Of a DNA stretch of 64,000 bases, positions 16,972 to 55,118 are shown piece after piece. Below the pieces are notes generated by a model, which searched no databases, was not told the origin of the DNA, and saw only the letters and a program-made list of their open reading frames with translations. Source of the DNA: Povalibacter uvarum (GTDB taxonomy: Bacteria > Pseudomonadota > Gammaproteobacteria > Steroidobacterales > Steroidobacteraceae); the NCBI RefSeq assembly GCF_014202975.1, contig NZ_JACHHZ010000003.1:868001-932000 (forward strand). Reading direction: 5' to 3'. The position numbers and the translations under genes were made by a program. Each line of letters begins with the position of its first letter. Position 1 is the first letter of the stretch.

Positions 16972-17096
16972 GAAGCGGTTAGCGGTTAGCGGTTAGTGAA
17001 TAGTCAGAATCAGGAGGTATGGGAGTGATTGCAGGAATGGGTGTGGAGCAGGCGAGTCGATCCGGCTCTGACTATCCGCCATCCGCTATCCGCTAG
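16972..17096. repeat. Heptamer inverted-repeat element, mixed GCGGTTA/GCGGATA arms (flgE-flgF)
   Basis: The left arm starts GAAG and continues with three GCGGTTA units, then TAGTCAGAAT. The right arm starts CTCTGAC and continues TATCCGC, CATCCGC, TATCCGC, then TAG: the inverse of a GCGGATA array. The arms are therefore of two different but related unit families and still pair imperfectly. About 45 nt of non-repetitive loop lies between. The right arm ends 14 bp before flgF. Confidence 0.85.
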
Positions 17097-17110
17097 TCAC
17101 CTCTTCCTTT

Positions 17111-17848
17111 ATGGATCGTTTCCTCTACATCGCAATGTCCGGCGCCAAGGAAACCTTGCGCGCGCAGACGTCGAACAACCACAACCTCGCGAATGCGAGC
17201 ACGACGGGTTTTCGGGCGAATCTCGATGCATTCCAGAGCCGCGCCGTTGCGGGCTCGGGTTATGCATCGCGTGTGTACGCGACCGATGCAACAGTGGGTT
17301 GGGATCAGACTCAAGGTGCGCTGCAGGCGACTGGTCGCGATCTCGACGTCGGCATTCAGGGCGAGGGATGGCTCGCGGTGCAGGGCAGCGATGGCCGCGA
17401 AGCCTACACCCGCGCCGGCGACCTGCGTATCGATGCGAACGGCATGCTCATGACAGGTGCAGGTCACTACGTCATGGGTGATGCGGGTCCGGTCGCTGTG
17501 CCGCCGAACTCGTCGGTGATGATCGGTGCGGACGGTACGGTTTCGATCGTGCCGATCGGCTCCGGTCCCGAGACGACGTCGATGGTCGGCCGCATCAAGC
17601 TCGTGAATCCGCCGGCGGAAACGATGGTGCGCAGCGAGGACGGCCTGTTCCGTACCAACGACGGCGCCGATGCCCCGGCTGATGCAAACGTTCGCGTCGC
17701 ATCAGGCGTGCTCGAGTCGAGCAACGTCAACGTCGCGAACGCGATGGTCAAGATGATCGAGCTGTCGCGTCAGTTCGATCTGCAAGTGAAGGCGATGAGA
17801 ACGGCCGAGGAGAACGCGACGAGCTCGGCCCAGCTGTTGCGAGGCTGA
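17111..17848 (+). CDS. flgF: Flagellar basal-body rod protein FlgF
   Basis: FlgF is a proximal rod subunit. The 245 residues start MDRFLYIAMSGAKETL with the NNHNLANASTTGFRANLDAF helix, a DLDVGIQGEGWLAV core motif, and the C-terminal [28 protein letters not shown] helix shared with FlgE and FlgG. There is no Shine-Dalgarno sequence: the preceding bases (CACCTCTTCCTTT) are pyrimidine-rich because the repeat element ends just before them. Translation may rely on coupling or on an unstructured start site. Confidence 0.95.
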   Translation: MDRFLYIAMSGAKETLRAQTSNNHNLANASTTGFRANLDAFQSRAVAGSGYASRVYATDATVGWDQTQGALQATGRDLDVGIQGEGWLAVQGSDGREAYTRAGDLRIDANGMLMTGAGHYVMGDAGPVAVPPNSSVMIGADGTVSIVPIGSGPETTSMVGRIKLVNPPAETMVRSEDGLFRTNDGADAPADANVRVASGVLESSNVNVANAMVKMIELSRQFDLQVKAMRTAEENATSSAQLLRG

Positions 17849-17870
17849 TCATGTCGCTCACCCTTCCATT

Positions 17871-17906
17871 TCTGGCTCATAGCTCGCAGCTCACCGCTCG
17901 CAGCTC
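17871..17906. repeat. Heptamer-array arm, GAGCnnn family (flgF-flgG)
   Basis: After a TCTG boundary come inverse units reading, on the other strand, GAGCTGC, GAGCGGT, GAGCTGC, GAGCTAT, then GAGCCAGA. Only this arm is present; no partner was found in the 76-bp gap. Confidence 0.75.
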
Positions 17907-17924
17907 TTCCTACGGAGTCTCACC

Positions 17925-18710
17925 ATGAATCCCGCCCTTTGGGCCGCCAAGACCGGACTCGATGCGCAGCAGACGCGCATGGCTGTCACGTCGAACAACC
18001 TGGCCAACGTGGGCACGACCGGCTTCAAGAAGGGCCGCGCCGTGTTCGAAGACCTGCTGTACCAGAACGTGCGCCAGGTCGGTGCCGCGACTTCGCAGGA
18101 CACCACCGCGCCGACAGGTCTGTCGCTCGGCACCGGCGTTCGCGTCGTTGCAACGGAGAAGACCTTCACGCAGGGCAATCTCTCGCAGACGGGCAACTCG
18201 CTCGATGTGGCGATCAGCGGTCGCGGCTTCTTCCAGGTGCTCATGCCGGACGGCACGATGGGTTACACGCGCGATGGCAGCTTCAAAGTCAGCGCGCAGG
18301 GTGAGCTCGTCACCGCGAGCGGCTACGCAGTGCAGCCGGGTATCACGCTTCCCGATGGCGCGCAAAGCGTCACGATCGGCAAAGACGGCGTGATCTCTGT
18401 GCAGGTCGCAGGGCAGCCCGCACCGACGCAGGTTGGTTCGCTGCAGCTGTTCGATTTCATCAACCCCGCCGGCCTTCAGCCGCGTGGCGAAAACATGTAC
18501 GTCGAGACGGCAGCCAGCGGCACCGCTCAGTCGGGCACGCCCGGCCTGAACGGCCTCGGCCTGGTGGAGCAGGGCATGCTCGAATCGTCGAACGTGAACG
18601 TCGTCGAAGAGCTCGTGGCGATGATCGAAACGCAGCGCGCCTACGAGATGAATTCGAAGGCGATCTCGACGACGGATCAGATGCTGGAATACATCACCAA
18701 CCAGCTTTGA
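17925..18710 (+). CDS. flgG: Flagellar basal-body rod protein FlgG (distal rod)
   Basis: FlgG forms the distal rod crossing the periplasm and outer-membrane rings. The 261 residues (typical length) carry [61 protein letters not shown] and the C-terminal [23 protein letters not shown] motif, a very close match to the family. ACGGAG 7 nt before the ATG is a normal ribosome binding site. Confidence 0.97.
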
Positions 18711-18711
18711 A

Positions 18712-18737
18712 GAAGCGGTTAGCGGTTAGCGGTTAGT
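18712..18737. repeat. Heptamer-array arm, GCGGTTA family (flgG-flgH)
   Basis: GAAG then three GCGGTTA units and GTGG, beginning 1 bp after the flgG stop. No inverse partner in the 53-bp gap. Confidence 0.8.
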
Positions 18738-18763
18738 GGCGGATCAAGAGTCGGAATACAGAC

Positions 18764-19486
18764 ATGAGTGTTAAGCAGAAGATCGGGTCGAGGACGGCGA
18801 GGCGCGGCCTGCCGCTATCGACCATCCGGCATCTGATTCTCGTGGCCGGTGCGTGCGCACTGAGCGCCTGCGTCAGTGCGCCGCCGGAGCCTGACTACAA
18901 AGCCACGTGGCCGGAGCCGCCGCCTTCCGCTACAGCGGGCAATGGCGCCATCTTCCAGGCAGGACACGATGTCGCACTGTTCGAGAACTCCGTGGCGCGT
19001 CGTGTGGGCGACACTCTGACGATTCGTCTGAACGAAAGCACGAACGCGTCGAAGAGCTCCAGCACTTCGACGAAGAAGTCGAGCTCCGCAACGTTGCCGG
19101 GGCCGACGGTCGCCGGTCGTCCGGTCACCGTGAACGGCGTTCCGGTGCTCGAGATGGGCATGGATAACGAGACTGAATTTGACGGTCAGGGCGACAGCCG
19201 GCAGAGCAATCGCCTGCAGGGCGATCTTTCCGTGACGGTTGCGCAGCGTCTGCCGAACGGCAACTTGCTGGTTCGCGGTCAGAAGTGGATCGCCATCAAC
19301 CAGGGCCAGGAGTACGTGCGGATCCAGGGTATCGTCCGGCCGATCGACATCGATCCGGACAACTCGATCTCTTCGCTGAAGGTTGCGGATGCGCAGATCT
19401 CCTACGGCGCGAAGGGCGCGCTCGCGGATGCGAACAAGCCGGGGTTGCTGGCCCGGTTCTTCAACGCGCCGTGGATGCCGTTTTGA
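18764..19486 (+). CDS. flgH: Flagellar L-ring protein FlgH (lipoprotein)
   Basis: FlgH builds the L-ring in the outer membrane. The 240 residues have a long basic leader and a lipobox LSAC with lipidated Cys36. After it come the ring domain with GAIFQAGHDVALFENSVARRVGDTLTIRL and the conserved GNLLVRGQKWIAINQGQEYVRIQGIVRP region, ending in NKPGLLARFFNAPWMPF. The ATG has no clear Shine-Dalgarno; an ATG inside the leader is not better placed. A single repeat arm lies upstream and another downstream. Confidence 0.95.
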   Translation: MSVKQKIGSRTARRGLPLSTIRHLILVAGACALSACVSAPPEPDYKATWPEPPPSATAGNGAIFQAGHDVALFENSVARRVGDTLTIRLNESTNASKSSSTSTKKSSSATLPGPTVAGRPVTVNGVPVLEMGMDNETEFDGQGDSRQSNRLQGDLSVTVAQRLPNGNLLVRGQKWIAINQGQEYVRIQGIVRPIDIDPDNSISSLKVADAQISYGAKGALADANKPGLLARFFNAPWMPF

Positions 19487-19490
19487 GACA

Positions 19491-19515
19491 GAAGCGGTTG
19501 GCGGTTGGCGGTTAG
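19491..19515. repeat. Heptamer-array arm, GCGGTTG/GCGGTTA family (flgH-flgI)
   Basis: GAAG followed by GCGGTTG, GCGGTTG, GCGGTTA, starting 4 bp after the flgH stop. No partner in the gap. Confidence 0.8.
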
Positions 19516-19527
19516 GACGAACGAAGG

Positions 19528-20634
19528 ATGACGAGGATCATGAAATACATAGCTCTTGTGCTGCTTGCATTGGCGGCTGTGCCGGCATCGGCCGAGCGCG
19601 TGAAGGATCTGGCTTCTGTCTCCGGTGTTCGCGGCAACCAGCTCGTCGGCTACGGCCTCGTCGTTGGCCTCGATGGTACTGGTGACCAGACGAGCCAGGC
19701 GCCGTTCACGATCCAGAGCATCCGCAACATGCTCGCGAAATTCGGCGTGACGATTCCCGCGAACGTGAATCCGCAGCTCAAGAACGTCGCTGCTGTCACC
19801 GTGTATGCCGATCTGCCCGCATTTGCCAAGCCCGGCCAAACGATCGACGTCACCGTGAACTCGATCGGCAACGCAACGAGCCTGCGCGGCGGCAGTCTTC
19901 TGATGACGCCTCTGCGCGGTATCGATGGCGAGGTGTACGGCATCGCGCAGGGCAGCCTGGTGGTGAGCGGCTTCGGTGCTGCAGGCAAGGATGGTTCGCG
20001 CATCGCCGTCAACACGCCAAGTTCCGGCCGCGTTCCGAACGGTGCAAGCGTCGAGCGTGCTGTTCCGACCAATTTTGCGACTGAGCCGTTCATCGTGCTC
20101 AATCTGAATACGCCGGACTTCACGACGGCATCGCGCCTGACGGATGGCATCAACAACATCTTCGGCGCGGATACCGCGCGTGCGATGGATGCAGTTTCGG
20201 TGCGTGTGCAGGCGCCGATCGATGCCAGCCAGCGCATTGCATATCTCTCAGCACTCGAAGCGATCGAGATCGAGCCGGGCGATGCGCCCGCCCGCGTGAT
20301 AGTGAACTCGCGCACTGGAACGGTCGTCATCGGATCGGCTGTGCGCGTCAAGCCGGCAGCTGTGGCTCACGGATCGCTCTCCGTCACGATCACCGAACGC
20401 AACGATGTGAGTCAGCCGAACGCACTGTCGAACGGCGAAACGGTCGTCACGCCGCGCTCGGACATCAAGGTCGATCAGCCGGAAGCACGCATGTTTGTGT
20501 TCAACGCCGGCGTGAATCTCGACGAGATCGTGCGCGCGGTGAACCAGGTCGGCGCCGCTCCCGGCGATCTCGTGGCGATCCTCGAAGCCTTGAAAGAGGC
20601 CGGGGCGCTGCGCGCTGAGCTGATCGTGATCTGA
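19528..20634 (+). CDS. flgI: Flagellar P-ring protein FlgI
   Basis: FlgI assembles the P-ring in the peptidoglycan layer. The 368 residues have a signal peptide ([15 protein letters not shown]) and mature start [33 protein letters not shown], the strongest signature of the family. The C-terminal part has [17 protein letters not shown] and ends [15 protein letters not shown]. Two starts are possible, ATG 19528 and ATG 19540; the first has TAGGA about 10 nt upstream. Confidence 0.96.
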
Positions 20635-20639
20635 TCACC

Positions 20640-21554
20640 ATGACTTCCGCACCTACCAACGTCTCCTTCTTCGCCGACCCGAAAGCGCTCTCATCGCTGA
20701 AGAGCGATGCACGCGCGCAGGATCCGGGAGCACTCAAGGAAGTCGCGAAGCAGTTCGAGAGTCTGTTCACGCAGATGCTCCTAAAGAGCATGCGCGAAGC
20801 GAACCGCAGCCTGAGCAACGGCGACACGCTGTTCGGGAGCGACCAGGCGGACTTCTATCAGGACATGTTCGATCAGCAGATCGCGGTCCACTTGTCGAAA
20901 GGCGAGGGACTGGGACTGGCGGATATGTTGGTGAGGCAGCTTGCCGGTGGAGCGGCGAGCGGCGAGCAGCGAGCGGTGAGCCAGAAGACGGAAAGCGCAG
21001 GCTCGAACGGCGCTACAGAAGCTGCAGGCCCGTCTCCGGTCGCCACTTCCAAGGCAGATTTCATTCGCCGCATGTTGCCGCACGCTCAAGAGGCAGCGCG
21101 CGAACTCGGCGTCGACCCGCAGGCCTTGCTCGCGCAGGCCGCGCTGGAAACCGGTTGGGGCAAGTCAGTCCCGTGCAACGCAGCAGGCGATTGCAGCTAC
21201 AACCTGTTCGGCATCAAGGCGGGCAGCAGCTGGTCGGGCGCGACAGTGAATGTACCCACTCTCGAGTTCGAGGACGGCGTCGCGGTGCGCAAGGTCGATC
21301 GCTTCCGTGCCTACGAGTCGCCCGCCGACAGCTTCAAGGACTATGCCCGTCTGATCCGCAACAACCCGCGGTACGAAGCGGCACTGAACGCTGGCACGGA
21401 CGTCGCTGGATTCGCTTCGGCCTTGCAGCAGGGAGGCTATGCGACCGATCCGAACTACGCGAACAAGATCACTGCCGTCGCTCGCGAGGTTCAGTCGATG
21501 ACAGGACTCAAGTTCGATCGCACACGGCCGATCTCCACTGGCGGAGAAGCGTGA
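20640..21554 (+). CDS. flgJ: Bifunctional FlgJ: rod cap and peptidoglycan hydrolase
   Basis: The N-terminal domain (about 1-100, KEVAKQFESLFTQMLLKSMREANRS and DQADFYQDMFDQQIAVHLSKG) is the rod-cap domain. The C-terminal domain (about 140-290) is a glucosaminidase/muramidase with LLAQAALETGWGKS, in which the glutamate is catalytic, and YNLFGIKAGSSW. Together they drill and scaffold the rod through peptidoglycan. Two-domain FlgJ is typical of beta/gammaproteobacteria. The linker at about residues 104-116 (AASGEQRAVSQK) is encoded by an arm of the GAGCnnn repeat family at 20950-20987, so a repeat has been accommodated in frame. Confidence 0.95.
   Translation: MTSAPTNVSFFADPKALSSLKSDARAQDPGALKEVAKQFESLFTQMLLKSMREANRSLSNGDTLFGSDQADFYQDMFDQQIAVHLSKGEGLGLADMLVRQLAGGAASGEQRAVSQKTESAGSNGATEAAGPSPVATSKADFIRRMLPHAQEAARELGVDPQALLAQAALETGWGKSVPCNAAGDCSYNLFGIKAGSSWSGATVNVPTLEFEDGVAVRKVDRFRAYESPADSFKDYARLIRNNPRYEAALNAGTDVAGFASALQQGGYATDPNYANKITAVAREVQSMTGLKFDRTRPISTGGEA
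20950..20987. repeat. Heptamer-array arm inside the flgJ linker, GAGCnnn family
   Basis: Units GAGCGGC, GAGCGGC, GAGCAGC, GAGCGGT, then GAGCCAGAAG, the same inner boundary as the intergenic copies at 44846 and 48714. It lies entirely within flgJ between the two domains and keeps the reading frame. Confidence 0.8.
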
Positions 21555-21564
21555 TGAAGGAGCA

Positions 21565-21693
21565 GAAGCGGTTAGCGGTTAGCGGTTGGCGGTTAGCAAG
21601 AAGGCTATTCGTCAGCGCGTCGCAGTTCCGCCCGCGCGAAGCGCGGTCTCTTCCGTTCTGGCCAACCGCTAACCGCCAACCGCTAACCGCTTC
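21565..21693. repeat. Heptamer inverted-repeat element, GCGGTTA family (flgJ-flgK)
   Basis: The left arm is GAAG plus GCGGTTA, GCGGTTA, GCGGTTG, GCGGTTA. The right arm is the inverse array ending CTTC, with a TTCTGG inner boundary. The arms pair almost perfectly over about 30 bp. The loop of about 65 nt contains a CGCGCGAAGCGCG palindrome. The element begins 11 bp after the flgJ stop and ends 11 bp before flgK. Confidence 0.9.
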
Positions 21694-21704
21694 GGGCAAT
21701 CAAA

Positions 21705-23603: not shown

Positions 23604-23617
23604 CGGGGTGAATTGAT

Positions 23618-24829
23618 ATGCGTCTCTCCACACAGTCCTACTACCAGCGTTCGATCGCCGCCATGCTGGATCAGCAGTCGGCGCTGTCGAAGATCCAGAA
23701 CCAGGTTGCCAGCGGCAAGAAGGTGACGTCGCCCGCGGACGATCCCATCGCGGCCGTGCACATCATGGAGCTCGAGCGGAGCAAACAGGAGTACGGCCAG
23801 TACGACAAGAACAGCGCATTGGCGCGCAATCGCCTGTCGCTGGAAGAGAGCGCCCTGGCGGATGCGGGAACCGTGCTCACGCGAGTACGCGAGCTGATTC
23901 TGCAGGCATCAAATACAGGCACGCTGACCGACGAGGATCGCGAATCGATCGCCGTCGAATTGCAGAGCCGACTGGAGCAGATGCAGGACATCGCCAATCG
24001 CAAGGACGGCAATGGCGAGTACATGTTCAGCGGATTCTCCACGCTCACTCAGCCTTTCGCGGGCGCGACCAGCGGCAACGTCGTGTACGCCGGCGATCAG
24101 GGCTCGCGCCTGTTGCAGGTCGGACCGACGCAGCGCATCGCGGACAGCCATTCCGGATTCGATGTGTTCATGAACATCACGGAAGGCAACGGCACCTTTT
24201 ATACGCAGGCGACGGCGACCAACACCGGTAACGGATCGATCAGCGTCGGCTCGGTTGCGAACCCGGCCGCATGGGTGCGTGACAACTACACGCTGACGTT
24301 CACGAGCGCAACGACGTGGGAAGTGACGGATACGGCCACTCCGACGCCGAACGTCGTCAGCAGCGGTACATATACATCCGGCGACGCCATCGCGTTCAAC
24401 GGTGCGCAGGTCGTCATCAAGGGAAACCCGGCGGCCGGGGATTCCTTCTCGATCAACCAGGCTCAGAGCGAAAGCGTGTTCGACTCGATCGATCGCGTGG
24501 TGCAGGCGCTGCGTACGCCCTCGGAAACGCCGGCTGCCACCGCTCAGTTGACTTCGACGCTCGAGCGTTCCCTGCAGCAGGTCGACCAGGCGTCCGATCA
24601 CATGCTGGGCGTACGCGGGCAGGTGGGTGCACGACTGTCGTCCCTCGATGTTGCGGACGCGTCGCGCGAAGACATCAACGTGGATATCGCGACCTCGCTC
24701 TCGGATCTCCAGGACCTGGACTACGCCGAAGCCATTGCGCGCATGCAGCAGCAGATGGTGGGCCTGCAGGCGGCGCAGCTGTCGTATTCGCAGATATCGC
24801 AGCTTTCGCTGTTCAACTATCTGAAATGA
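23618..24829 (+). CDS. flgL: Flagellar hook-filament junction protein FlgL (HAP3)
   Basis: FlgL is the second junction protein below the flagellin filament. The 403 residues start MRLSTQSYYQRSIAAMLDQQSALSKIQNQVASGKKV, with a SPADDPIAAVHIMELER motif. They close with a coiled C-terminus (DLDYAEAIARMQQQMVGLQAAQLSYSQISQLSLFNYL) like flagellin. The central insertion (NYTLTFTSATTWEVTDTATPTPN) resembles the one in FlgK and probably forms an outer domain. The stop codon overlaps the first base of a repeat arm. Confidence 0.95.
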   Translation: MRLSTQSYYQRSIAAMLDQQSALSKIQNQVASGKKVTSPADDPIAAVHIMELERSKQEYGQYDKNSALARNRLSLEESALADAGTVLTRVRELILQASNTGTLTDEDRESIAVELQSRLEQMQDIANRKDGNGEYMFSGFSTLTQPFAGATSGNVVYAGDQGSRLLQVGPTQRIADSHSGFDVFMNITEGNGTFYTQATATNTGNGSISVGSVANPAAWVRDNYTLTFTSATTWEVTDTATPTPNVVSSGTYTSGDAIAFNGAQVVIKGNPAAGDSFSINQAQSESVFDSIDRVVQALRTPSETPAATAQLTSTLERSLQQVDQASDHMLGVRGQVGARLSSLDVADASREDINVDIATSLSDLQDLDYAEAIARMQQQMVGLQAAQLSYSQISQLSLFNYLK

Positions 24830-24952
24830 AGCGGTTAGCGGTTGGCGGTTAGTCGAAAACCCTAAGAGGCAGATCGTCTGGCGCGGTCAGTGGCCAGCGT
24901 CTGCCGTGCCTCCCTCTGAACTAACCGCCAACCGCCAACCGCTAACCGCTTC
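24828..24952. repeat. Heptamer inverted-repeat element, GCGGTTA family (flgL-fliC)
   Basis: The left arm starts inside the flgL stop codon: GAAG, GCGGTTA, GCGGTTG, GCGGTTA. The right arm is CTCTGA followed by inverse units TAACCGC, CAACCGC, CAACCGC, TAACCGC, then TTC. About 65 nt of loop lies between. It sits upstream of the flagellin promoter. Confidence 0.88.
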
Positions 24953-27083: not shown

Positions 27084-28478
27084 ATGGCAACGGTAGGTGC
27101 AGTCGGCGGTTCGCAGATCGATGTGCAGGGACTCGTGTCCCAGCTCGTGGCGGCTGAACGAGCCCGACCCGAAGCCCAGATCGAACGCGACACGGGTCGC
27201 GTCACCACCCAGATTTCAGCGCTCGGCCAGCTCATGGGCTCGCTGGCGACCTTTCGCTCTTCACTGTCGTCGCTGCAGACGGTCGGTACGTTCAGTACGC
27301 GGGCCGTGAAGAGCACCAACGAAGACGTGATCACAGCAAGCGTCGGCGGCGGCGCCGTGCCAGGCAGCTACGACATCGATGTGGAATCGGTGGCGCAGGC
27401 TCACCAGATTTCCTCGAATCCCTTCGCCGGCGGCGGCACTACCGTCGTCGGGACCGGCTCGCTGACGCTCTCCATGGGCGGCAAGAGCTTCACGGTCGCG
27501 ATCGAGGACGGCAAAGCGACGCTTGCGGACATCCGCAACAAGATCAACTCGGCGAACGACAATGTCGGCGTCCGTGCAACCCTGGTCCAGGGCACGACGG
27601 GCACGCGTCTGGTGCTGTCGTCGTCGACGACCGGCGCAGCGAACACGATCGAAGTGACGCAGTCCGGCGGCAATGGCGGTCTGGCCCAGCTGACCTACGG
27701 CACCGGGAACACCGCGAACTACACGCAGGTCAAGGAAGCCCAGGACGCGGTGATCTACATCGCGGGCGAGAAGATGACCAGCGCGAGCAACACGATCGAC
27801 AGCGCGATCGACGGCCTGACGCTGACGGTCAAGAGGCCGACGACGGAGGAGAGCGGTCCGGCGACGTTGAACGTCACGTACGACAGCTCCGCCGTCACGA
27901 CGCGCGTCAAGAGCTTCGTCACGGCCTATAACGCGCTCGTTTCGCAGATTGCGAAGCTGCGCAGCTATGATCCCGCGACCGAGACGGCCGGTCCGATGCT
28001 CGGCGACTCGCTGCTCACCAGCATCGAAAGCGAGCTGCGCCGGACCGTCAGCGGCGTGGTGCCCGGCCAGGCGAAGGGATTCGAAACCCTGGCGGCCATC
28101 GGCATCACGACTCAGCTCGACGGCTCGCTCGGCATCGACGACGCCAAGCTGCAGAAGGCGCTGGGCAGCAACTTCGAATCCGTCGGCAAGCTGTTCGGCT
28201 CCGAGGACGGCATTGCCCGCAAGCTCTTTGCCCAGATCGATGGGCGACTGAAGACGGGCGGTGCACTCGATACGCGCAACAAGACACTCACCGACCAGCA
28301 GCGCGCCATCGAGAAGCGCAAAGACGATCTCGACGTGCGCATGGCCGCGGTCGCTCAGAACTACTTGCAGCAGTTCACGCGCCTCGACACGCTGCTGTCG
28401 CAGCTCCAGGTCACCTCGAGCTACCTGACGCAGCAGATCGAGTCGCTGGGGAATCTGAACAAGGCATCTTCGAGATAG
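27084..28478 (+). CDS. fliD: Flagellar filament cap protein FliD (HAP2)
   Basis: FliD caps the filament and helps flagellin fold at the tip. The 464 residues start with IDVQGLVSQLVAAERA and coiled N-terminal helices. The FliD N domain follows (AVKSTNEDVITASVGGGAVPGSYDIDVESVAQAHQ). The C-terminal domain ends with RLDTLLSQLQVTSSYLTQQIESLGNLNK, a coiled coil. The start is 13 bp after flaG with a GAGGAG site. An element with an intrinsic terminator in its loop follows the stop directly. Confidence 0.95.
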   Translation: MATVGAVGGSQIDVQGLVSQLVAAERARPEAQIERDTGRVTTQISALGQLMGSLATFRSSLSSLQTVGTFSTRAVKSTNEDVITASVGGGAVPGSYDIDVESVAQAHQISSNPFAGGGTTVVGTGSLTLSMGGKSFTVAIEDGKATLADIRNKINSANDNVGVRATLVQGTTGTRLVLSSSTTGAANTIEVTQSGGNGGLAQLTYGTGNTANYTQVKEAQDAVIYIAGEKMTSASNTIDSAIDGLTLTVKRPTTEESGPATLNVTYDSSAVTTRVKSFVTAYNALVSQIAKLRSYDPATETAGPMLGDSLLTSIESELRRTVSGVVPGQAKGFETLAAIGITTQLDGSLGIDDAKLQKALGSNFESVGKLFGSEDGIARKLFAQIDGRLKTGGALDTRNKTLTDQQRAIEKRKDDLDVRMAAVAQNYLQQFTRLDTLLSQLQVTSSYLTQQIESLGNLNKASSR

Positions 28479-28595
28479 CCAGATAGCCAGCTAGCCGGCT
28501 AGCCAGCTAGCTATTGGCCAGAGAACCCGTTGGGAGGGGACGCTCCCTTCTCGCTTTTTTCTGGCTAGCAGGCTAGCGGGCTAGCTGGCTAGCAA
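28477..28595. repeat. Octamer inverted-repeat element, GCTAGCCA family (fliD-fliS)
   Basis: The left arm begins in the fliD stop codon: four 8-bp AGCCAGAT/AGCCAGCT/AGCCGGCT-type units, then TTGGCCAGAG. The right arm is TTCTGGCTAG, CAGGCTAG, CGGGCTAG, CTGGCTAG. The period is 8, unlike the 7-bp families, but the CAGA/TCTG inner boundaries are the same. The loop contains an intrinsic terminator. Confidence 0.88.
28521..28560 (+). terminator. Intrinsic terminator in the loop of the fliD-fliS element
   Basis: GAGAA and GGGAG pair with CTCCC and TTCTC, with a bulge on the 5' side, followed by GCTTTTTT. It ends the fliC-flaG-fliD unit before the fliS promoter. Confidence 0.75.
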
Positions 28596-28606
28596 GCTTT
28601 CTTAGC

Positions 28607-32170: not shown

Positions 32171-32258
32171 GACATGGGTAACGGGGCCTGGGGCTCGGGT
32201 CAGAGCGACTCAGCTTCCGTTCCTGCCCATGTCCCGAGCCCCGACCCCCGCGTCCCCC
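32171..32258. repeat. Heptamer inverted-repeat element, GGGnnnn family (5' end of the FleR-like gene)
   Basis: The left arm reads GGGTAAC, GGGGCCT, GGGGCTC, GGGTCAGAG. The right arm on the other strand reads GGGGGTC, GGGGCTC, GGGACAT, GGGCAGGAACGG. The period is 7 and the CAGA inner boundary is shared with the other families. It lies between the sigma-54 promoter and the AAA+ domain coding region. Confidence 0.75.
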
Positions 32259-33268: not shown

Positions 33269-33277
33269 GCAAGGAGA

Positions 33278-33310
33278 GAAGCGGTTAGCGGTTGGCGGTT
33301 GGCGGTTAGC
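33278..33310. repeat. Heptamer-array arm, GCGGTTA/GCGGTTG family (upstream of fliE)
   Basis: GAAG, GCGGTTA, GCGGTTG, GCGGTTG, GCGGTTA, then GCAAGAGAG, 10 bp after the FleR-like stop. No inverse arm before fliE. Confidence 0.8.
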
Positions 33311-33683: not shown

Positions 33684-33831
33684 GAAGCGGATAGCGGATA
33701 GCGGATAGTGAATGGTCGGAATCAGAGCCAGAAAAATGCAGTATCAGTTTCACGGTGATGTGGTCAGCAGTGGCGAGCAGGAGGCGCGGTCCGTCCGGCC
33801 TATCCGCCATCCGCTATCCGCCATCCACTTC
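33684..33831. repeat. Heptamer inverted-repeat element, GCGGATA family (fliE-fliF)
   Basis: The left arm is GAAG plus three GCGGATA units and GTGAATGGTCGGAATC. The right arm is TATCCGC, CATCCGC, TATCCGC, CATCCAC, TTC. The loop is about 85 nt. It starts 2 bp after the fliE stop. Unlike several others, a GGAGG ribosome binding site for fliF remains between arm and gene. Confidence 0.88.
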
Positions 33832-37234: not shown

Positions 37235-38583
37235 GAGCAGAGTTTCCCACCAACCGCGCCCCGAACTGGCTCAAGCAGCTCGACCAATTGCAGCGCAAGG
37301 TCGAGCGCGTGCCGCCTCCGCCCGTCGAAGGTGTGCTCACGCGCATGATCGGATTGACGCTCGAAGCTTCGGGCTGCCAGGCAGCGGTCGGCGACCGTTG
37401 CGATGTGATGGCGAACGACGGAACGCGCATCGAGGCGGAAGTCGTGGGCTTCGCGGGCGATCGTTTGTACCTCATGCCTACGGGCGACATTCATGGGCTC
37501 AAGCCGAATGCTCGCGTGATTCCGCGAGTCGGAGCGGAGTCCGTTGCCGTCGGCCCCGAGCTTCTTGGCCGCATCATCGACGGCGCCGGCCAGCCCCTCG
37601 ACGGACTTGGTCCGATCGAGTGCGAAGGCCGCGTGCGTCTCACCGGCACTCAGATCAATCCGCTGGCGCGTCAGCCCATCAGCGAACCGCTGGATGTCGG
37701 CGTGCGCGCAATCAATTCGGTTCTCACTGTCGGTCGTGGACAGCGCGTGGGTCTGTTTGCAGGCAGCGGCGTCGGCAAGAGCGTGCTGCTCGGCATGATG
37801 GCGCGCTTCACCAGCGCCGACGTCATCGTCGTCGGCCTGATCGGCGAGCGTGGTCGCGAAGTGAAGGAATTCGTCGAGCGCATCCTCGGCCGCAAGGATC
37901 GTGATCGAGCCGTTGTCGTCGCGACGCCGGCCGACAATCCGCCGCTCATGCGTCTGCACGGCGCCTGGCGTGCGACCGCGATTGCCGAGTACTTCCGCGA
38001 CCAGGGCAAGAGCGTTCTTCTGATCATGGATTCGCTCACGCGAGTCGCACAGGCGCAGCGCGAGATCGGTCTCGCCATCGGTGAAGCGCCTGCCACGAAG
38101 GGCTATCCGCCGTCGGTGTTCGCCCGAATCCCGCAGATCGTCGAGCGGGCAGGAAACGGCGCGGAAGGCAGCGGTTCCATCACTGCGTTCTACACCGTGC
38201 TTACTGAAGGCGACGACCAGCAGGATCCGATTGCCGACTCTGCTCGCGCGATTCTCGATGGACACATCGTGCTGTCCCGTCGCATCGCGGAAGCGGGTCA
38301 GTACCCTGCGATCGACATCGAAGCATCGATCAGCCGCGCCATGCACGAAATCGTTCCCGCGCAGCACAGCGCGATGGCACGCCGTTTCCGTCAGTCGCTG
38401 TCGACGTTCCAGCAGAACCGGGACCTCATCGCGATCGGTGCGTACCAGAAGGGCTCGGACCCGCGCATCGACGCGGCGATCGCCCAGTGGCCGTCGATAC
38501 AGAAGTTCCTGCAGCAGGATATGACAGAGAAAGTGGCGTATGCCGACAGCGTCGCTGCCCTGACTCAGCTTGCCGGTGAATAG
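37231..38583 (+). CDS. fliI: Flagellum-specific ATPase FliI
   Basis: FliI powers unfolding and entry of export substrates. The 450 residues contain the P-loop AGSGVGKS at 177-184, the Walker B region [22 protein letters not shown], and the family motif [16 protein letters not shown], ordered as in F1-beta subunits. The start is the ATG overlapping the fliH stop; a longer frame upstream only reads fliH in another register. Typical length. Confidence 0.97.
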
Positions 38584-39946: not shown

Positions 39947-40014
39947 GTCATTCCCGCGCAGGCGGGAATCCATCTGCATCCCTCGGCATGGACTCCCGCT
40001 TGCGCGGGAGTGAC
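39947..40014. repeat. REP-like double palindrome (ATTCCCGCG type), copy 3
   Basis: Two inverted units, GTCATTCCCGCG... and ...CGCGGGAGTGAC, immediately after fliK. One unit carries the ACTCCC variant with matching change on the opposite side of its stem. Confidence 0.85.
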
Positions 40015-40066: not shown

Positions 40067-40116
40067 GGCCACCGGCCAGACTCTGGCCAGCAGCCAGCAG
40101 CCAGCAGCCGCCAGCC
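40067..40116. repeat. Heptamer inverted-repeat element, nCTGGCn family (fliK-fliL)
   Basis: A short left arm (GGCCACCGGCCAGA) abuts a right arm (CTCTGGCCAGCAGCC then CAGCAGC units). The two meet with almost no loop. A weak CCCG...CGGG hairpin followed by CTTTTC comes next at about 40120-40136 and may terminate the fliEFGHIJK message. The remaining gap to 40254 shows nothing further. Confidence 0.6.
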
Positions 40117-40254
40117 TCCCGCCGTCGGGCTTTTCTCCTGTGCTCCCCATCACATTTCCCCCGCCAACTTTCCGACGTGTGTGCTGCAGTTCACAGTCGC
40201 CGGAAACGCACAAAACCCTTGTTTTATAGGCATTTCGTGAGCTTCCGGCCCGCG

Positions 40255-42245: not shown

Positions 42246-42253
42246 GCGCTCGG

Positions 42254-42289
42254 GTGACGAAGGTGACGAAAGTGACGTTGGTGACGAAG
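42254..42289. repeat. 9-bp tandem repeat at the fliO start
   Basis: GTGACGAAG, GTGACGAAA, GTGACGTTG, GTGACGAAG: four units in a row. Each begins with a possible GTG start codon and encodes VTK/VTL. Confidence 0.85.
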
Positions 42290-43932: not shown

Positions 43933-44065
43933 GAAGTAGATAGCGGATGGCGGATAGGGACCGAATCCAGCAGGCGAGCGATCCGGCTGCCACGATCTCG
44001 ATACACGCCACCTGACGCCAATCCGACTCTGACTATCCGCCATCCGCTATCCGCCCATCTACTTC
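43933..44065. repeat. Heptamer inverted-repeat element, GCGGATA family (fliQ-fliR)
   Basis: The left arm is GAAGTAGATA, GCGGATG, GCGGATA. The right arm is CTCTGAC, TATCCGC, CATCCGC, TATCCGC, CCATCTACTTC. The outer GAAGTAGAT/ATCTACTTC ends pair perfectly. The element occupies almost the whole gap, ending 1 bp before the fliR ATG. Confidence 0.92.
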
Positions 44066-44845: not shown

Positions 44846-44977
44846 GCAGTGAGCGGCGAGCGACGAGCTGTGAGCCAGAAGCCAGGAGGCTGCGAGCTCG
44901 AACGGATGGCCGGCATGCTTCTTTTTCGCCTCCGCTTCCGTCTCTGGCTCGCGGCTCACAGCTCGCCGCTCATTGCT
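44846..44977. repeat. Heptamer inverted-repeat element, GAGCnnn family (fliR-flhB)
   Basis: The left arm is GCAGT, GAGCGGC, GAGCGAC, GAGCTGT, GAGCCAGAAG. The right arm, read inversely, is GAAGCAAT, GAGCGGC, GAGCTGT, GAGCCGC, GAGCCAGAGA. Both inner boundaries are GAGCCAGA. The loop is about 55 nt. Confidence 0.9.
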
Positions 44978-46114: not shown

Positions 46115-46173
46115 GGGAACTGGCTAGCGGCTAGCCAGAATACCGAGTCGGAACCTCCGGTCCGGCTCTGCTT

Positions 46174-46246
46174 GTGGGTCCGGCTTTAGCCGGACGTCAG
46201 CGAAGCATCGCCTGCGGCGATTACGTCCGGCTGAAGCCGGACCCAC
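46174..46246. repeat. Three-hairpin palindrome (GTGGGTCCGGCT type)
   Basis: GTGGGT and ACCCAC close the element. Inside are CCGGCT/AGCCGG hairpins on both sides and an ATCGCC/GGCGAT hairpin in the middle. A second copy is at 62507-62602 and a fragment at 40038-40059. Confidence 0.85.
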
Positions 46247-46252
46247 AACACC

Positions 46253-46511: not shown

Positions 46512-46592
46512 GCGACTGGCAACTGGCTCCTGGCGACTGGCCAGAGAGACGACTGCGTCACATTTCGTTCCGGCCAGCCGCCAGTAGCCAGT
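46512..46592. repeat. Heptamer inverted-repeat element, nCTGGCn family (upstream of flhA)
   Basis: The left arm is GACTGGC, AACTGGC, TCCTGGC, GACTGGC, CAGAGAG. The right arm is CCGGCCAG, CCGCCAG, TAGCCAG, TCGCCAT. The loop is about 28 nt. It would lie in the flhA leader, ending 19 bp before the start codon. Confidence 0.82.
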
Positions 46593-46611
46593 CGCCATCA
46601 GCCTCATCCCC

Positions 46612-48713: not shown

Positions 48714-48844
48714 GCGAGCTGTGAGCGATGAGCCAGAGAGATTCAGTGATGTGCAGGTTGGAAATGATGACGAACACAAGTGTCAATGAGGGACCGGCGG
48801 GCTTCTGGCTCGTCGCTCATCGCTCGTCGCTCGTCGCCCATCGC
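48714..48844. repeat. Heptamer inverted-repeat element, GAGCnnn family (flhA-flhF)
   Basis: The left arm is GCGAGCTGT, GAGCGAT, GAGCCAGAGAG. The right arm, read inversely, is GCGAT, GGGCGAC, GAGCGAC, GAGCGAT, GAGCGAC, GAGCCAGAAGCC. The arms are unequal in length (two against four units). The loop is about 65 nt. Confidence 0.88.
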
Positions 48845-48855
48845 GGAGCGAGCCT

Positions 48856-51808: not shown

Positions 51809-51881
51809 TGCTCGGGGAAGAAGCGGTTCTTCCTCTCATCGAAAGGCTTGGGAAAGACTTGGGATCATTGGAGATCGGGAC

Positions 51882-52268
51882 GTGAGCAAAGACATGAAGT
51901 TTCTGGTGGTCGACGACTTCTCGACCATGCGCCGAATCATCAAGAACCTCCTGATCGATCTCGGCTACCAGAACGTGACCGAGGCCGACGACGGCCAGAC
52001 CGCGCTGCCGATGCTGCAGGCGGGCAGCTTCGACTTCCTCATCACGGACTGGAACATGCCTGGCATGCCGGGCCTCGATCTGCTGAAAGCGGTTCGCGCT
52101 GACGCGAAGCTCGCCAAGATGCCGGTGCTCATGCTGACCGCGGAAGCGAAGCGCGAGCAGATCATCGAAGCAGCGCAGGCCGGCGTGAACGGCTACGTGA
52201 TCAAACCCTTCACGGCGGTCACGCTGAAGGAAAAGATCGACAAGATTCTCGAGGCGCGGGCGGCCTGA
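51882..52268 (+). CDS. cheY: Chemotaxis response regulator CheY
   Basis: CheY carries the phosphate signal from CheA to FliM. The 128 residues have all active-site positions: Asp11 and Asp12 (VVDDFS), phosphoacceptor Asp56 (ITDWNMPG), Thr86 (LTAEA) and Lys108 (IKPF), each one lower than in E. coli CheY. The GTG start is preceded by GGAGA. An ATG four codons further in is an alternative. It is followed by cheZ; the kinase gene cheA lies 11 kb downstream at 63215. Confidence 0.97.
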
Positions 52269-52274
52269 GGCCGC

Positions 52275-52350
52275 GGCAACTGGCAACTGGCGACTGGCCG
52301 CTGGCCAGAGTCCGGATTGGCCAGTAGCCAGCAGCCAGTAGCCAGCAGCC
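52275..52350. repeat. Heptamer inverted-repeat element, nCTGGCn family (cheY-cheZ)
   Basis: The left arm is CAACTGG, CAACTGG, CGACTGG, CCGCTGG, CCAGAG. The right arm is TTGGCCAG, TAGCCAG, CAGCCAG, TAGCCAG, CAGCC. The loop is under 10 nt, making this the most compact hairpin of the set. It starts 6 bp after the cheY stop and ends 13 bp before cheZ. Confidence 0.9.
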
Positions 52351-52363
52351 AAAGGTTTTCGCC

Positions 52364-53110
52364 ATGACGCCTCCCTCGTCCAATCTGCAGGAACAGTTCG
52401 GCCCCATCATCGCGGCGCTTGCGGGCGCGCTCGCGGCCGGCGATGAACAGCTTTTCTACCGGGAGCTGGATGCGCTGGTCGAAAGTCGCGAACGTAATCT
52501 GTTCGGCGAACTGCGCAAGCTCACCTCCGATCTGCAATCGGCGCTGGTGCGCTTCAGCATCGACTCACGCCTCGTCGATCTCGCGGAGAAGGAAGTGCCC
52601 GACGCGAGGGCGCGGCTCGATCACGTCCTCAAGATGACGGACGAGGCGGCCCATCGCACCATGGATCTCGTCGAACAGTCGGGACCGCTCGCCGATCGCA
52701 CCGCGAAGCAGGCGGCGGAGATCATCGAATCCTGGAAGCGGTTCCGGGCTCGCAGCATCGCTGTCGACGAATTCCGGGACATGGTCGTGAAGATGGATTC
52801 GTTCCTCGAGTCCGCCGGTGAAGACATGGGCAAGGTGCGCAGCAACCTCGCCGAAGTCCTCATGACCCAGGGCTACCAGGATCTCTCCGGTCAGATCATC
52901 CGCGGCGTCATGAAGCTCGTCGGCGAGCTCGAAACCGCACTCGTCGAACTCGTGCGCCTCTCTAAGGGCGGCGTTCGCAAGTCGGACGTCGAGGCAGAAA
53001 AGCCCAGCACTTCCCGCGGCTTCGGTCCCGTAGTCCCCGGTGTCGATCACGGTCCGGCCGTCAGCGGCCAGCAGGACGTCGATTCGCTGCTGGCGGGATT
53101 GGGAATGTAA
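52364..53110 (+). CDS. cheZ: Chemotaxis phosphatase CheZ
   Basis: CheZ removes phosphate from CheY. The 248 residues form the long helical hairpin. The active-site region is KMDSFLESAGEDMGKVRSNLAEVLMTQGYQDLSGQIIRGVMKLV (about 144-187), with the catalytic glutamine in TQGYQDLSGQ. The C-terminal CheY-binding peptide is QQDVDSLLAGLGM. A weak AAAGG lies 8 nt before the ATG, just after a repeat arm. Its presence supports a beta/gammaproteobacterial origin. Confidence 0.96.
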   Translation: MTPPSSNLQEQFGPIIAALAGALAAGDEQLFYRELDALVESRERNLFGELRKLTSDLQSALVRFSIDSRLVDLAEKEVPDARARLDHVLKMTDEAAHRTMDLVEQSGPLADRTAKQAAEIIESWKRFRARSIAVDEFRDMVVKMDSFLESAGEDMGKVRSNLAEVLMTQGYQDLSGQIIRGVMKLVGELETALVELVRLSKGGVRKSDVEAEKPSTSRGFGPVVPGVDHGPAVSGQQDVDSLLAGLGM

Positions 53111-53114
53111 GGAA

Positions 53115-53251
53115 GAAGTAGATAGCGGATAGCGGATGGTGACTAGTCAGAACAAGAAGGCGAGACGAGATCACAGCGGCAGGCCCGCTGTGCGGGACCC
53201 GTCTTGTCCTTTGTCTGAGCCATCCGCCATCCGCTATCCGCTATCCGCTTC
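53115..53251. repeat. Heptamer inverted-repeat element, GCGGATA family (cheZ-motC)
   Basis: The left arm is GAAGTAGATA, GCGGATA, GCGGATG, GTGACTAGTCAGAACAAG. The right arm is TGTCTGAGC, CATCCGC, CATCCGC, TATCCGC, TATCCGCTTC. The loop (about 60 nt) holds GGCAGGCCCGCTGTGCGGGACC, a smaller hairpin. It starts 4 bp after the cheZ stop. Confidence 0.92.
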
Positions 53252-53260
53252 GGATATCTA

Positions 53261-54001
53261 ATGGATATTCTCTCCATCATTGGTCTTTTGCTCGCGGTTG
53301 CGGCGCTGCTCGTCGGTGCTGTGCTGAAGGGCGCGGGCCTGGCGTCGCTGGTGTCGGCGGCGGCGTTCATGATCGTCATCGTCGGGACGATCGCGGCGAT
53401 CTTCATTCAGACGCCGCTGGCGGTCATGAAGGACGCGTTCCGGATCCTGCCGTGGGTTTTCAATCCGCCGGCGAACCGCCGTGCCGAGCTCGTCAAGAAG
53501 ATGGTCGACTGGAGCAACACTGCGCGAAAGCAGGGGCTGCTCGGTCTCGAGCCCGTCATCGACAGGGAAACCGATGCGTTCGTGCGCAAGGGACTCCAGC
53601 TCGTCGTCGACGGCAGCGAACCGGAAGTGATCCGCAACATTCTCGAAGTCGACATGCACGTTCGCGAACAGACGGACACGCGCGGCGCGAAAGTATTCGA
53701 AGGCATGGGCGTCTACGCGCCGACCCTCGGCATCATCGGAGCCGTGCTCGGCCTGATGGCGGTGCTGCAGAACCTCGCCGACCCGAGCAAGCTCGGCCAG
53801 GGCATCGCAGCTGCATTCACCGCGACGATCTACGGCATCGGTCTCGCGAACCTGTTCTTCCTCCCCGTCGCAAGCAAGCTCAAGGTTGCCATTGCCCGCC
53901 AGGCCGAAGCCCGCGAGATGGTGATCGAAGGGATGATTTCGATTGCACAGGGGGAGAATCCGCGATCGATCGAGTCGAAGTTGCAAGGCTACTTACACTA
54001 G
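53261..54001 (+). CDS. motC: Flagellar stator protein MotC (MotA/PomA family)
   Basis: MotC is the ion-channel stator subunit with four transmembrane helices. The 246 residues show helices at about 3-23, 29-50, 147-168 and 179-202, with the cytoplasmic torque loop between helices 2 and 3. Family motifs VFEGMGVYAPTLGIIGAVLGLMAVLQNL and IAAAFTATIYGIGLANLFFLP are intact. MotCD is the second stator pair of Pseudomonas. Only one stator pair is present in this window. The stop runs into the next repeat arm. Confidence 0.96.
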   Translation: MDILSIIGLLLAVAALLVGAVLKGAGLASLVSAAAFMIVIVGTIAAIFIQTPLAVMKDAFRILPWVFNPPANRRAELVKKMVDWSNTARKQGLLGLEPVIDRETDAFVRKGLQLVVDGSEPEVIRNILEVDMHVREQTDTRGAKVFEGMGVYAPTLGIIGAVLGLMAVLQNLADPSKLGQGIAAAFTATIYGIGLANLFFLPVASKLKVAIARQAEAREMVIEGMISIAQGENPRSIESKLQGYLH

Positions 54002-54094
54002 AAGGGGACAGCGGATAGCGGATAGCGGATGGTCAGAGCAGGACTGCACGCATTTTCTTCTTTCCTATCCGCCATCCGCTATCCGCCAGCCTTC
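54001..54094. repeat. Heptamer inverted-repeat element, GCGGATA family (motC-motD)
   Basis: The left arm begins in the last base of the motC stop: GAAGGGGACA, GCGGATA, GCGGATA, GCGGATG, GTCAGAGC. The right arm is CCTATCCGC, CATCCGC, TATCCGC, CAGCCTTC. The loop is about 28 nt. It ends 2 bp before the motD ATG. Confidence 0.9.
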
Positions 54095-54096
54095 CT

Positions 54097-55062
54097 ATGC
54101 CCCGCCGTCACAAACACGAAGAGCATGCCAACCACGAAGCGTGGGCGATCCCCTATGCGGATCTGCTGACGCTGCTGCTCGCGTTCTTCGTCGTGATGTA
54201 CGCGATCTCGTCGGTGAACGAAGGCAAGTATCGGGTGCTGTCCGATTCGTTGTTCGCGGCGTTCCGCGGGTCGCCGCGGACGTTGCAGCCGGTGCAGGTC
54301 GGTGAGAAAGCGGTCGGATCGGGTGCCGACATCCAGATGACGATCGTGCAGCAGGCGATGCTCGAAGGGCAGCCGCGGTCGATGCTCGAACCGAGTCCGA
54401 TCAGCGTGTCCGATTCGCAGCACAGTGCGCATCATGCGGCGAACACGACGTATGACTCGGAGACGCAGGCGAGTGAAGCAGCGGTGCAGCAGCTCGAATC
54501 CGTTGCGCGTGAAGTCGAGCAGGCCATGTCGACGCTGGTCGATCAGCAGTTGATCGCCGTGCGACGCCATGGACTGTGGGTCGAAGTCGAGATTCGCACC
54601 GACATCCTGTTTCCGAGCGGTGTTGCGACGATGGAGCCGGCGGCCATCGATGTCCTGCGTCAGCTCGCAGGGACACTCAAGCCGTTCCCGAATCCGATCC
54701 GCGTGGAAGGGCACACGGACAATCGTCCCATCAGCACGCGTGCGTTTCCGTCGAACTGGGAGCTTTCTTCCGCACGCGCGGCAAGCGTCGTGCATCTCTT
54801 CACCGAGAGCGGTATTGCGCCGGCGCGGCTCGCGGTGATCGGACTCGGCGAGTACCGTCCGGCACAGCCCAACACGACGGCGGAAGGCCGCAATGCCAAT
54901 CGTCGCGTCGTGCTGGTCATCCTGAGCGGCAACACGCCGCCCGAAGGCGACTACGCCGAAGATCGCGGCATGCCGGAAGTGCCTGCGGCTGCTCCCGCAG
55001 AAATTCCAGCAGCTGACCCCACCGTCTCTGCTGCCGTGGTGACGGCGCAGCCCGCAACGTAG
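54097..55062 (+). CDS. motD: Flagellar stator protein MotD (MotB family)
   Basis: MotD couples ion flow to torque and anchors the stator to peptidoglycan. The 321 residues have a single transmembrane helix at about 22-41 with the essential aspartate in YADLLTLLLAFFVVMYA. After a plug/linker comes an OmpA-like domain (ILFPSGVATMEPAAIDVLRQLAG, then RVEGHTDNRPISTRAFPSNWELSSARAASVVHLF and RNANRRVVLVI). The ATG has no Shine-Dalgarno sequence; a repeat arm ends 2 bp upstream. It continues with a variable, Pro/Ala-rich tail. Confidence 0.96.
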   Translation: MPRRHKHEEHANHEAWAIPYADLLTLLLAFFVVMYAISSVNEGKYRVLSDSLFAAFRGSPRTLQPVQVGEKAVGSGADIQMTIVQQAMLEGQPRSMLEPSPISVSDSQHSAHHAANTTYDSETQASEAAVQQLESVAREVEQAMSTLVDQQLIAVRRHGLWVEVEIRTDILFPSGVATMEPAAIDVLRQLAGTLKPFPNPIRVEGHTDNRPISTRAFPSNWELSSARAASVVHLFTESGIAPARLAVIGLGEYRPAQPNTTAEGRNANRRVVLVILSGNTPPEGDYAEDRGMPEVPAAAPAEIPAADPTVSAAVVTAQPAT

Positions 55063-55083
55063 ACCTCCATCGGGTTCTGCTCG

Positions 55084-55118
55084 GGGCTCGCAGCTCACAG
55101 CTCATCGCTCGCAGCTCC
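55084..55118. repeat. Heptamer-array arm, GAGCnnn family (downstream of motD)
   Basis: Read inversely: GAGCTGC, GAGCGAT, GAGCTGT, GAGCTGC, GAGC. Only this arm is present. Further on, TGCTGC-TTC-GCAGCA at about 55169-55184 forms a small hairpin before the LysM gene. Confidence 0.75.

Follow-up and report, generated by a model that had tools for sequence, protein, structure and literature searches.

Intergenic hairpins with arms of tandem heptanucleotide units in Povalibacter uvarum and its relatives

The window analysed here is a 64,000-nucleotide stretch of the 6.32-Mb genome of Povalibacter uvarum (genome G000; window G000:C3:868001-932000), and its gaps between flagellar genes hold hairpins whose arms are short tandem arrays of 7-bp units. 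Ten open reading frames of the window were scanned against NCBIfam; FlgE, FlgF, FlgG, FlgH, FlgJ, FlgK, FlgL and FliR scored above the cut-off, the flagellin and FliD matches lay below it, and FlgI, FlaG and FliS are our reading of the gene order. FlgI is 85-92% identical to eight Steroidobacter or Peristeroidobacter records. A first-pass annotation of this DNA had counted at least twenty gaps with heptad arms, and the count stands. Between 16.9 and 55.2 kb, 19 intergenic gaps hold arrays scoring at least 8 and a twentieth (17871-17909), below that threshold, was read directly; 13 of the gaps have both arms and seven a single arm, and one more site lies inside flgJ. A tandem scan of the window at periods 5-12 gave 20 period-7 and two period-8 runs, with none at those periods in any of five block shuffles. 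Twelve of the 13 two-arm elements were folded, and their minimum free energies (MFE) lie at z -2.2 to -8.5 against mononucleotide shuffles. An intrinsic terminator would join a GC-rich stem to a U-tract, and of these two parts the stem is present.

The arrays extend beyond the window. The window together with 20 stretches of 20 kb taken at even spacing makes 464 kb, which holds 42 period-7 arrays (37 intergenic, three genic and two at edges) compared with 1, 0 and 1 in three shuffles; other periods give 0-5. The window itself is rich: its 64 kb account for 20 of the period-7 arrays and the 400 kb of the even sample for 22. A second 400-kb sample brings the set to 864 kb; it was partly sited on known matches, so densities are taken from the even sample alone, and both samples enter the counts of pairing, placement, polarity, heads and tails, stems, loops, partners and folding.

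Several unit families are present. GCGGTTA, GCGGATA, GAGCnnn, CTGGCnn and an 8-bp unit GCTAGCCA were found as first annotated, and a proposed GGGnnnn family was not confirmed, its candidate (32182-32250) lying in a called gene. The GAAG...CAGA frame described around the arms is an enrichment and not a rule. CAGA follows the array by no more than 16 nt in 11/33 and 14/33 arrays of the two GCGG families, 18/28 of GAGC and 5/10 of CTGGC (2.8, 3.0, 3.0 and 0.7 when shuffled), and GAAG or GGAG precedes 30/33 and 31/33 arrays of the GCGG families (15.3 and 15.1). That head is not clearly enriched in GAGC (14/28, shuffled 10.1) or CTGGC (3/10, shuffled 3.3).

The two arms of an element belong together at the level of the family. 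Among 121 arrays of the 864 kb (score at least 10, periods 7-9), 69 have within 220 bp a reverse-complement partner scoring at least 12, a rate that falls to 9.2% with the reverse complement of another array. Of the 24 convergent array pairs called in P. uvarum, 23 have arms of one family, where random reassignment of right arms gives 9.5 (standard deviation, sd, 2.3); only the first element of the window (16972-17106) is mixed. This bears out the earlier statement that both arms nearly always share a family, so that pairing is kept at family level and sequence is not. In the GCGG families the fifth base of the unit agrees between arms in 54 of 60 aligned units (30.1 expected, sd 6.6). The stem analysis covered 73 gaps with arrays scoring at least 10 and found 51 strong stems; these, and the arm-mismatch counts given below, take in three gaps where the best stem is a non-heptad one (window 39941, L052:1654 and L059:1178).

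Placement and orientation follow the direction of the genes. Arrays occur in 58 of 354 codirectional gaps, 10 of 64 convergent gaps and only 5 of 104 divergent gaps (p 0.002, codirectional against divergent). Of the 77 arrays in codirectional gaps, 68 follow one rule: 34 lie near the stop codon with the G-rich strand as sense, and 34 near the start with the G-rich strand as antisense; nine break it. All 13 arrays of convergent gaps are directed outward from the gene, and where a gap has two arrays their order is '><' in 22 cases and '<>' in one. Polarity is kept in 21 of 24 single arms with no partner or a weak one. Hairpins that are not built of heptads show a weaker G-first bias in the codirectional gaps of four genomes (87 vs 39).

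The position of the arms invites the reading that a folded stem brings an upstream stop codon next to a downstream start and so couples translation. Among 36 codirectional gaps with heptad stems (39 less three with other hairpins) 31 have a left arm that starts no more than 12 nt from the stop and 20 have a right arm that ends 15 nt or less from the called start, as such coupling would have it. In the other 16 the distance from right arm to called start is 20-331 nt, and heptad arrays are as common in convergent gaps, which have no start codon nearby. We consider coupling very unlikely as the general explanation.

Visual inspection suggests that many right arms directly adjoin the start codon, without a Shine-Dalgarno sequence. 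In three elements of the related genome G002 (L184, L187 and L195) the called upstream stop is a TAG inside GCGGTTAG, and the repeat seems to supply the stop.

Arms, partners and loops have different histories. Copying of one arm onto the other should leave partners more alike than unrelated arms of the same family, and they are not more alike. Similarity to the own partner and to an arm of another element is 25.57 vs 25.42 in P. uvarum (n 23, p 0.43), 28.44 vs 29.39 in G002 (n 18) and 24.78 vs 26.38 in G013, the nearest species to P. uvarum (n 9). The loops are also unrelated: 42 P. uvarum loops gave one matching pair (E 7e-6, in elements 650 bp apart), the next best match being 19 nt at E 0.001, and 16 G002 loops gave no match at E 0.05. 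Since own partners are no closer than other arms and the loops are unrelated, one arm does not appear to be copied from the other.

The first-pass annotation had offered an RNA stem, or a copying mechanism that rebuilds both arms together, as explanations. The RNA stem is still the best reading; copying from the partner arm finds no support in the three genomes. In its DNA-level form, template switching at the inverted repeat would copy arm onto arm and slippage would alter the number of units. At least one element, 21565-21693 as read directly, mirrors its unit variants exactly between arms, and the order of A/G variants is mirrored slightly overall (39/60 vs 30.7, p 0.02), although the alignment register favours mirroring and a within-element test gives p 0.11. 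The partner comparison nevertheless largely refutes such arm repair: as a frequent process it is rejected, and we hold it to be highly improbable as the source of the design.

Similarity among the arms is instead genome-wide. Arms are dispersed and near-identical, with common heads and tails, and within one family they differ by genome. GCGGTTC makes up 19 of 135 GCGGTTN units in 20 G002 loci and none of 91 in P. uvarum, even though the G002 loci were picked by a pattern excluding C, which biases against this result; unit position 5 is A 94 and T 91 in P. uvarum but A 3 and T 135 in G002. As arms are alike across a genome and differ between genomes within one family, and the loops are unrelated, the arms evolve in concert within a genome and the loops do not.

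The unit families are lineage-specific, as seen in 14 genomes of the genus (G000-G013). Perfect matches to GCGGNTRx3 number 345 in P. uvarum, 241 in G011, 70 in G002, 21 each in G007 and G012, 10 in G005, three in G013, one in G004 and none in six genomes, G001 among them. Genome-wide the elements are common in P. uvarum, the reversed pattern giving 18. ACRGGCNx3 matches 155 times in G013, 116 in G010, once in G011 and not at all in eleven genomes including P. uvarum, and GAGCNNNx4 matches 162 times in P. uvarum (control 11), 13 in G007, six in G013, four in G003, once in G002 and in none of the other nine. Over the three patterns P. uvarum, G002, G010, G011 and G013 are rich in heptads, and G001, G006, G008 and G009 have no matches or hardly any. 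Beyond the genus GCGGNTRx3 is nearly absent: five of 147 genomes drawn from the order have it, P. uvarum included, the other four with 1-4 matches. Of 369 genomes sampled from the class, 22 have a 9-bp cousin, CACGGNGNNx3, with 113 matches in P. uvarum, 29 in a distant genome and 1-12 in each remaining one, and some of the low-count matches look like coding repeats. Small samples held few period-7 arrays scoring at least 11 (G001 0 in 40 kb, G002 0 in 80, G003 0 in 80, G005 0 in 60 and G009 1 in 80 kb), and G013 had one in 160 kb outside its much richer flagellar contig, so arrays are unevenly spread in these six genomes. An assembly artefact, which had been named as a way for the elements to be spurious, is rejected because several separate assemblies carry such arrays.

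The same gaps were compared in relatives, as had been proposed at first pass, and G013 shows other unit families there. Reading of the printed gaps found two-arm hairpins in both species at 16970, 33682, 43525, 43927, 44838, 48697, 52269 and 54002; the family differs at seven of these eight and is the same (CTGGC) at 52269. At the remaining element gaps only one of the two species has an element. Gap 48697 aligns between the species in spite of GAGC arms in one and ACAGGC arms in the other (z 6.0; 5' flank z 4.7, loop z 2.2). Among the common gaps alignment beyond the arms is clear only there, and 17849 is weaker (z 3.2). Two G013 stretches gave no match on synteny mapping to P. uvarum, in a search of doubtful depth that carries no weight.

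Closer comparisons were possible around G002. Twenty G002 loci were taken from pattern matches; all hold heptad arms in the examined gap, and 18 convergent array pairs were called in them. Six of the sites, in four stretches, gave 15 readable sister gaps in relatives, with flanks 93-97% identical to G002 in G001 (at the five sites where it was found) and 85-97% in the others. A strong hairpin lies near the stop in 10 of 14 sister gaps without arrays, compared with 23 of 69 other gaps (p 0.0097), or in 8 of 12 when two that share their hairpin with G002 are set aside (p 0.032), and the median MFE z is -2.6 in sister gaps and -1.3 in other gaps (p 0.04). One 554-nt gap, divergent gaps, gaps shorter than 28 nt and one G008 gap that retains a right arm were excluded from the hairpin count.

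The hairpins at these sister sites are of other sequence. At L200:18089 G002 has a heptad hairpin and G001 has GGTCACGGGC...GCCCGTGACC, and at L200:2026 G005 has GGAACGC...GCGTTCC. L199:1987 carries GGAGGTCCGCGG...CCGCGGACCTCC in G001, one unit in G004 and a lone right arm in G008, and is clean before the conserved flank in G005. Other hairpins occupy L201:830 in G001 and G004, where G005 has a TGACTGN array framed GAAG...TCAGA; at L201:7621 GGTCGCGA...TCGCGACC stands in G004 and neither G001 nor G005 has a strong hairpin; and at L202:15004 both G005 and G001 carry other hairpins, that of G001 being weak. Thus at four of the five sites comparable between G002 and G001 a hairpin of unrelated sequence stands in G001 (three strong, one weak), which makes these sites a natural test of whether shape or sequence matters in intergenic bacterial hairpins. 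The G002 loop aligns to the sister gap at one site of six, L202:15004 (z 4.9 to G001, z 2.7 to G005), so the arms there flank resident sequence; alignment at the other five is below z 2 (best 1.9, at L201:7621). The remnants in G004 and G008 indicate that some elements predate G002, which may therefore retain what its relatives have lost, and gain and loss at the G002 sites are not separable with these genomes.

Our preferred explanation, to which we give a probability of about one half, is that these are intercistronic and 3'-end hairpins that act as RNA structures under selection for shape and are rebuilt from lineage-specific pools of heptads. A stable stem at a given gene boundary would be kept while its sequence would not. 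In its favour are the placement and polarity of the arrays, the folding energies, the hairpin turnover at sister sites, the weaker G-first bias of non-heptad hairpins, the replacement of families in G013 and the concerted arms. Relatives often have a hairpin of unrelated sequence at the same boundary, and the positions are those to be expected of transcript 3' ends and intercistronic regions. In some lineages of the genus tandem 7-mers make up the stems, with few unit families per genome, and the arms of a family, but not the loops, stay similar across the genome. Because any left arm could pair with any right arm of its family, a hairpin could disappear and return, or switch to another family, without losing the ability to fold. 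The stems most likely block or slow 3'-to-5' decay, mark transcript ends after the stop codon, or both, and at a guess the G-first order would allow the C-rich arm to be captured as soon as it is transcribed. Hairpins of the repetitive extragenic palindromic (REP) type have an exonuclease-blocking role. REPs have also been proposed to protect or define transcript 3' ends (PMC3733652).

Four results weigh against an RNA structure kept for its shape. Non-heptad hairpins in the convergent gaps of the four genomes lack a G-first bias (34 vs 30), and a strong hairpin is missing from four of the 14 sister gaps. A stricter automatic count of codirectional gaps in P. uvarum and G013 gives an element in both at six, in P. 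uvarum only at 11, in G013 only at five and in neither at 43 (p 0.028); the sharing of positions is real but modest. Finally, arm mismatches on the sense strand of codirectional gaps comprise 59 G-U and 56 A-C, without the excess of G-U that selection on RNA would predict, and these similar numbers count against a simple story of RNA covariation. The absent excess fits recent rebuilding or a DNA-level cause. Such a cause could be that the arms are protein-binding or cruciform-forming sites, whose sequence and symmetry matter in DNA. The lack of wobble bias and the polarity of single arms with no or weak partners speak for this, but unit sequence varies by species and sister sites hold alternative hairpins of unrelated sequence, and we regard a DNA-level role as quite unlikely.

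How arms spread is a separate matter from what the RNA stems would do. Single arms could disperse, gene conversion could act on them, or they could travel in a mobile unit whose loops change fast. It is possible, and we advance it tentatively, that each genome has a pool of heptad arms of its own, from which a homogenising or dispersing process writes arms into both sides of its hairpins; a change in the pool would then change the family at the same boundaries, giving concerted evolution without conserved sequence, loop or partner. Should arms truly be exchanged from a genome-wide pool, this would be a form of concerted evolution for which our searches of an open-access library gave no description in bacterial hairpins. 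Mobile element, slippage repeat and RNA stem are ideas usually merged, and they are separable here because arms, loops and partners show different histories.

The mobile unit has a known model in REP elements, bacterial interspersed mosaic elements (BIMEs) and REP doublets forming hairpins (REPINs). In a REPIN-like family the inverted arms would mark both ends of a miniature element that a transposase moves, with loops diverging fast and selection clearing promoters and genes. Such a family would account for near-identical dispersed arms with common heads and tails, for lineage-specific abundance and for a site (L199:1987) that is clean in G005 and element-bearing in G002. As far as the available part of the account by Di Nocera et al. 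2013 goes, REP-type elements are also often inverted pairs, dispersed, plausibly transcribed and downstream of genes in codirectional and convergent gaps, and some genomes have several types, as here (PMC3733652); our arrays share this placement. Against it stand the unrelated loops, which weaken transposition of whole elements, and the one site of six where the loop is partly resident gap sequence (z 4.9 against G001). The 20-40-bp palindrome with a GTAG or CGTC tag is likewise missing: (GCGGTTA)n holds no self-complement, and the head is GAAG or GGAG, or absent. A link to REP-associated tyrosine transposases (RAYTs) was tried and rejected. There are two Y1_Tnp matches, one below cut-off, and in the 3.3 kb around each no arms of these families adjoin them; the only array there scoring at least 10 is a 17-nt CGGAGCG run belonging to none of the families. 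With arms of tandem 7-mers, unrelated loops and single arms that are not palindromic, the P. uvarum elements differ from REPs and REPINs, and we think such a mobile family unlikely.

The closest described system lies elsewhere, in Xanthomonas. Short tandemly repeated repetitive (STRR) sequences of cyanobacteria are also tandem heptanucleotides. The two-arm design, which was not recognised at first, has already been reported in Xanthomonas, where GGGAATC / GGGANTN heptads form convergent inverted pairs, 70 in Xcc and 75 in Xac (Rehm et al. 2015, PMC4692102, in the part available to us, which also cites Calothrix heptanucleotides). Like those of P. uvarum, the Xanthomonas heptads as described there are tandem 7-bp units, intergenic, sense after the stop and antisense before the start, rare between divergent genes, and variable in sequence and length between related species (PMC4692102). 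Period-7 tandems, intergenic polarity and convergent pairs are thus common to both. That portion of the report describes one family capable of forming G-quadruplexes (PMC4692102), whereas P. uvarum has several families without repeated GGG. Its GCGGWTR, GAGCnnn and CTGGCnn units, as read, do not contain it, and a G-quadruplex is rejected for the main units; some ACGGGC occurs among the ACRGGC units of G013 and G010. Set against the same portion, family-matched arms, exchange of family between species and 8- and 9-bp versions are features of the P. uvarum side. TAACTGA repeats of Beggiatoaceae and cyanobacteria are also intergenic tandem heptads of patchy occurrence, as here, but the accessible part of their description gives them as direct, with one inverted case only, and mostly upstream of start codons (PMC4679880). 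The P. uvarum elements belong beside the Xanthomonas heptads, and would work like REP/BIME hairpins yet fail the REP definition. New are the several interchangeable families per genome, the match of arm family without partner similarity, the switch of family between species and the turnover of hairpins at sister sites; our searches of an open-access library turned up no account of them.

Table 1. Heptad and related arrays of the window, by position
Position	Strand	Location	Element	MFE z	Orthologous gap in G013
16972-17106	+	flgE-flgF gap	two-arm, left GCGGTTA, right GCGGATA (only mixed element)		
17871-17909	+	flgF-flgG gap	right arm only, GAGCnnn family (below array threshold, read directly)		
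18713-18736	+	flgG-flgH gap	left arm only, GCGGTTA		
19490-19513	+	flgH-flgI gap	left arm only, GCGGTTG		
20950-20981	+	within flgJ reading frame	GAGCnnn array; would encode linker residues		
21565-21693	+	flgJ-flgK gap	two-arm, GCGGTTA	-7.0	
24828-24952	+	after flgL	two-arm, GCGGTTA	-7.0	
28473-28602	+	after fliD	two-arm, 8-bp unit GCTAGCCA/GGCTAGCN	-8.0	
33276-33307	+		left arm only, GCGGTTG		
33684-33831	+		two-arm, GCGGATA		GAGC arms
40081-40123	+		right arm only, CTGGCnn family		
42253-42277	+		single arm, 9-bp array GGTGACGAA		
43524-43651	+		two-arm, GCGGATA		ACAGGCN arms
43933-44057	+	before fliR	two-arm, GCGGATA		ACAGGCN arms
44846-44976	+	after fliR	two-arm, GAGCnnn	-7.5	ACAGGCN arms
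46512-46595	+		two-arm, CTGGCnn	not folded	
48715-48844	+		two-arm, GAGCnnn		ACAGGCN arms; gap still alignable (z 6.0)
52275-52351	+		two-arm, CTGGCnn		same family
53115-53251	+		two-arm, GCGGATA	-8.5	absent
54006-54086	+		two-arm, GCGGATA		ACAGGCN arms
55079-55104	+		right arm only, GAGCnnn family		

Two entries of Table 1 need care in orientation. The 8-bp unit at 28473-28602 is nearly palindromic, which makes arm direction ambiguous, and the arms at 46512-46595 are complementary, yet the G/C count gives both the same label. At the gathering score Rfam has no match at the elements, and its sole match in the window is a cobalamin riboswitch (4599-4836, minus strand, 91 bits).

Other dispersed stems occur alongside the heptads. 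A 9-bp two-arm family, CACGGAGnn / CTCCGTGnn, of likewise convergent design, was seen at L085, L088, L097, L099, L055 and L092, and one expanded element (G000:C2:1090477-1090677; L093 10473-10682) has a left arm of 94 nt of GCGGATA units and a right arm of 39 nt. Beside heptad arms at 39947-40014 of the window, and also in L052 and L059, lies a dispersed ATTCCC/GGGAAT inverted repeat, GTCATTCCCGCGCAGGCGGGAATCCAT..., which we take to resemble the dRS3 elements of Neisseria. A double hairpin of the GTCCGGCTTTAGCCGGAC type stands at 46172-46248, and GGCCGGCTGAAGCCGGCC-like versions of it, with the stem sequence changed again, are found in the G013 gaps orthologous to 14.0, 39.9 and 46.1 kb. Long hairpins CCGCAAAAAGGCGCAAA.../...TTTGCGCCTTTTTGCGG, another dispersed stem type, occupy the G013 gaps orthologous to window positions 37235 and 60892.

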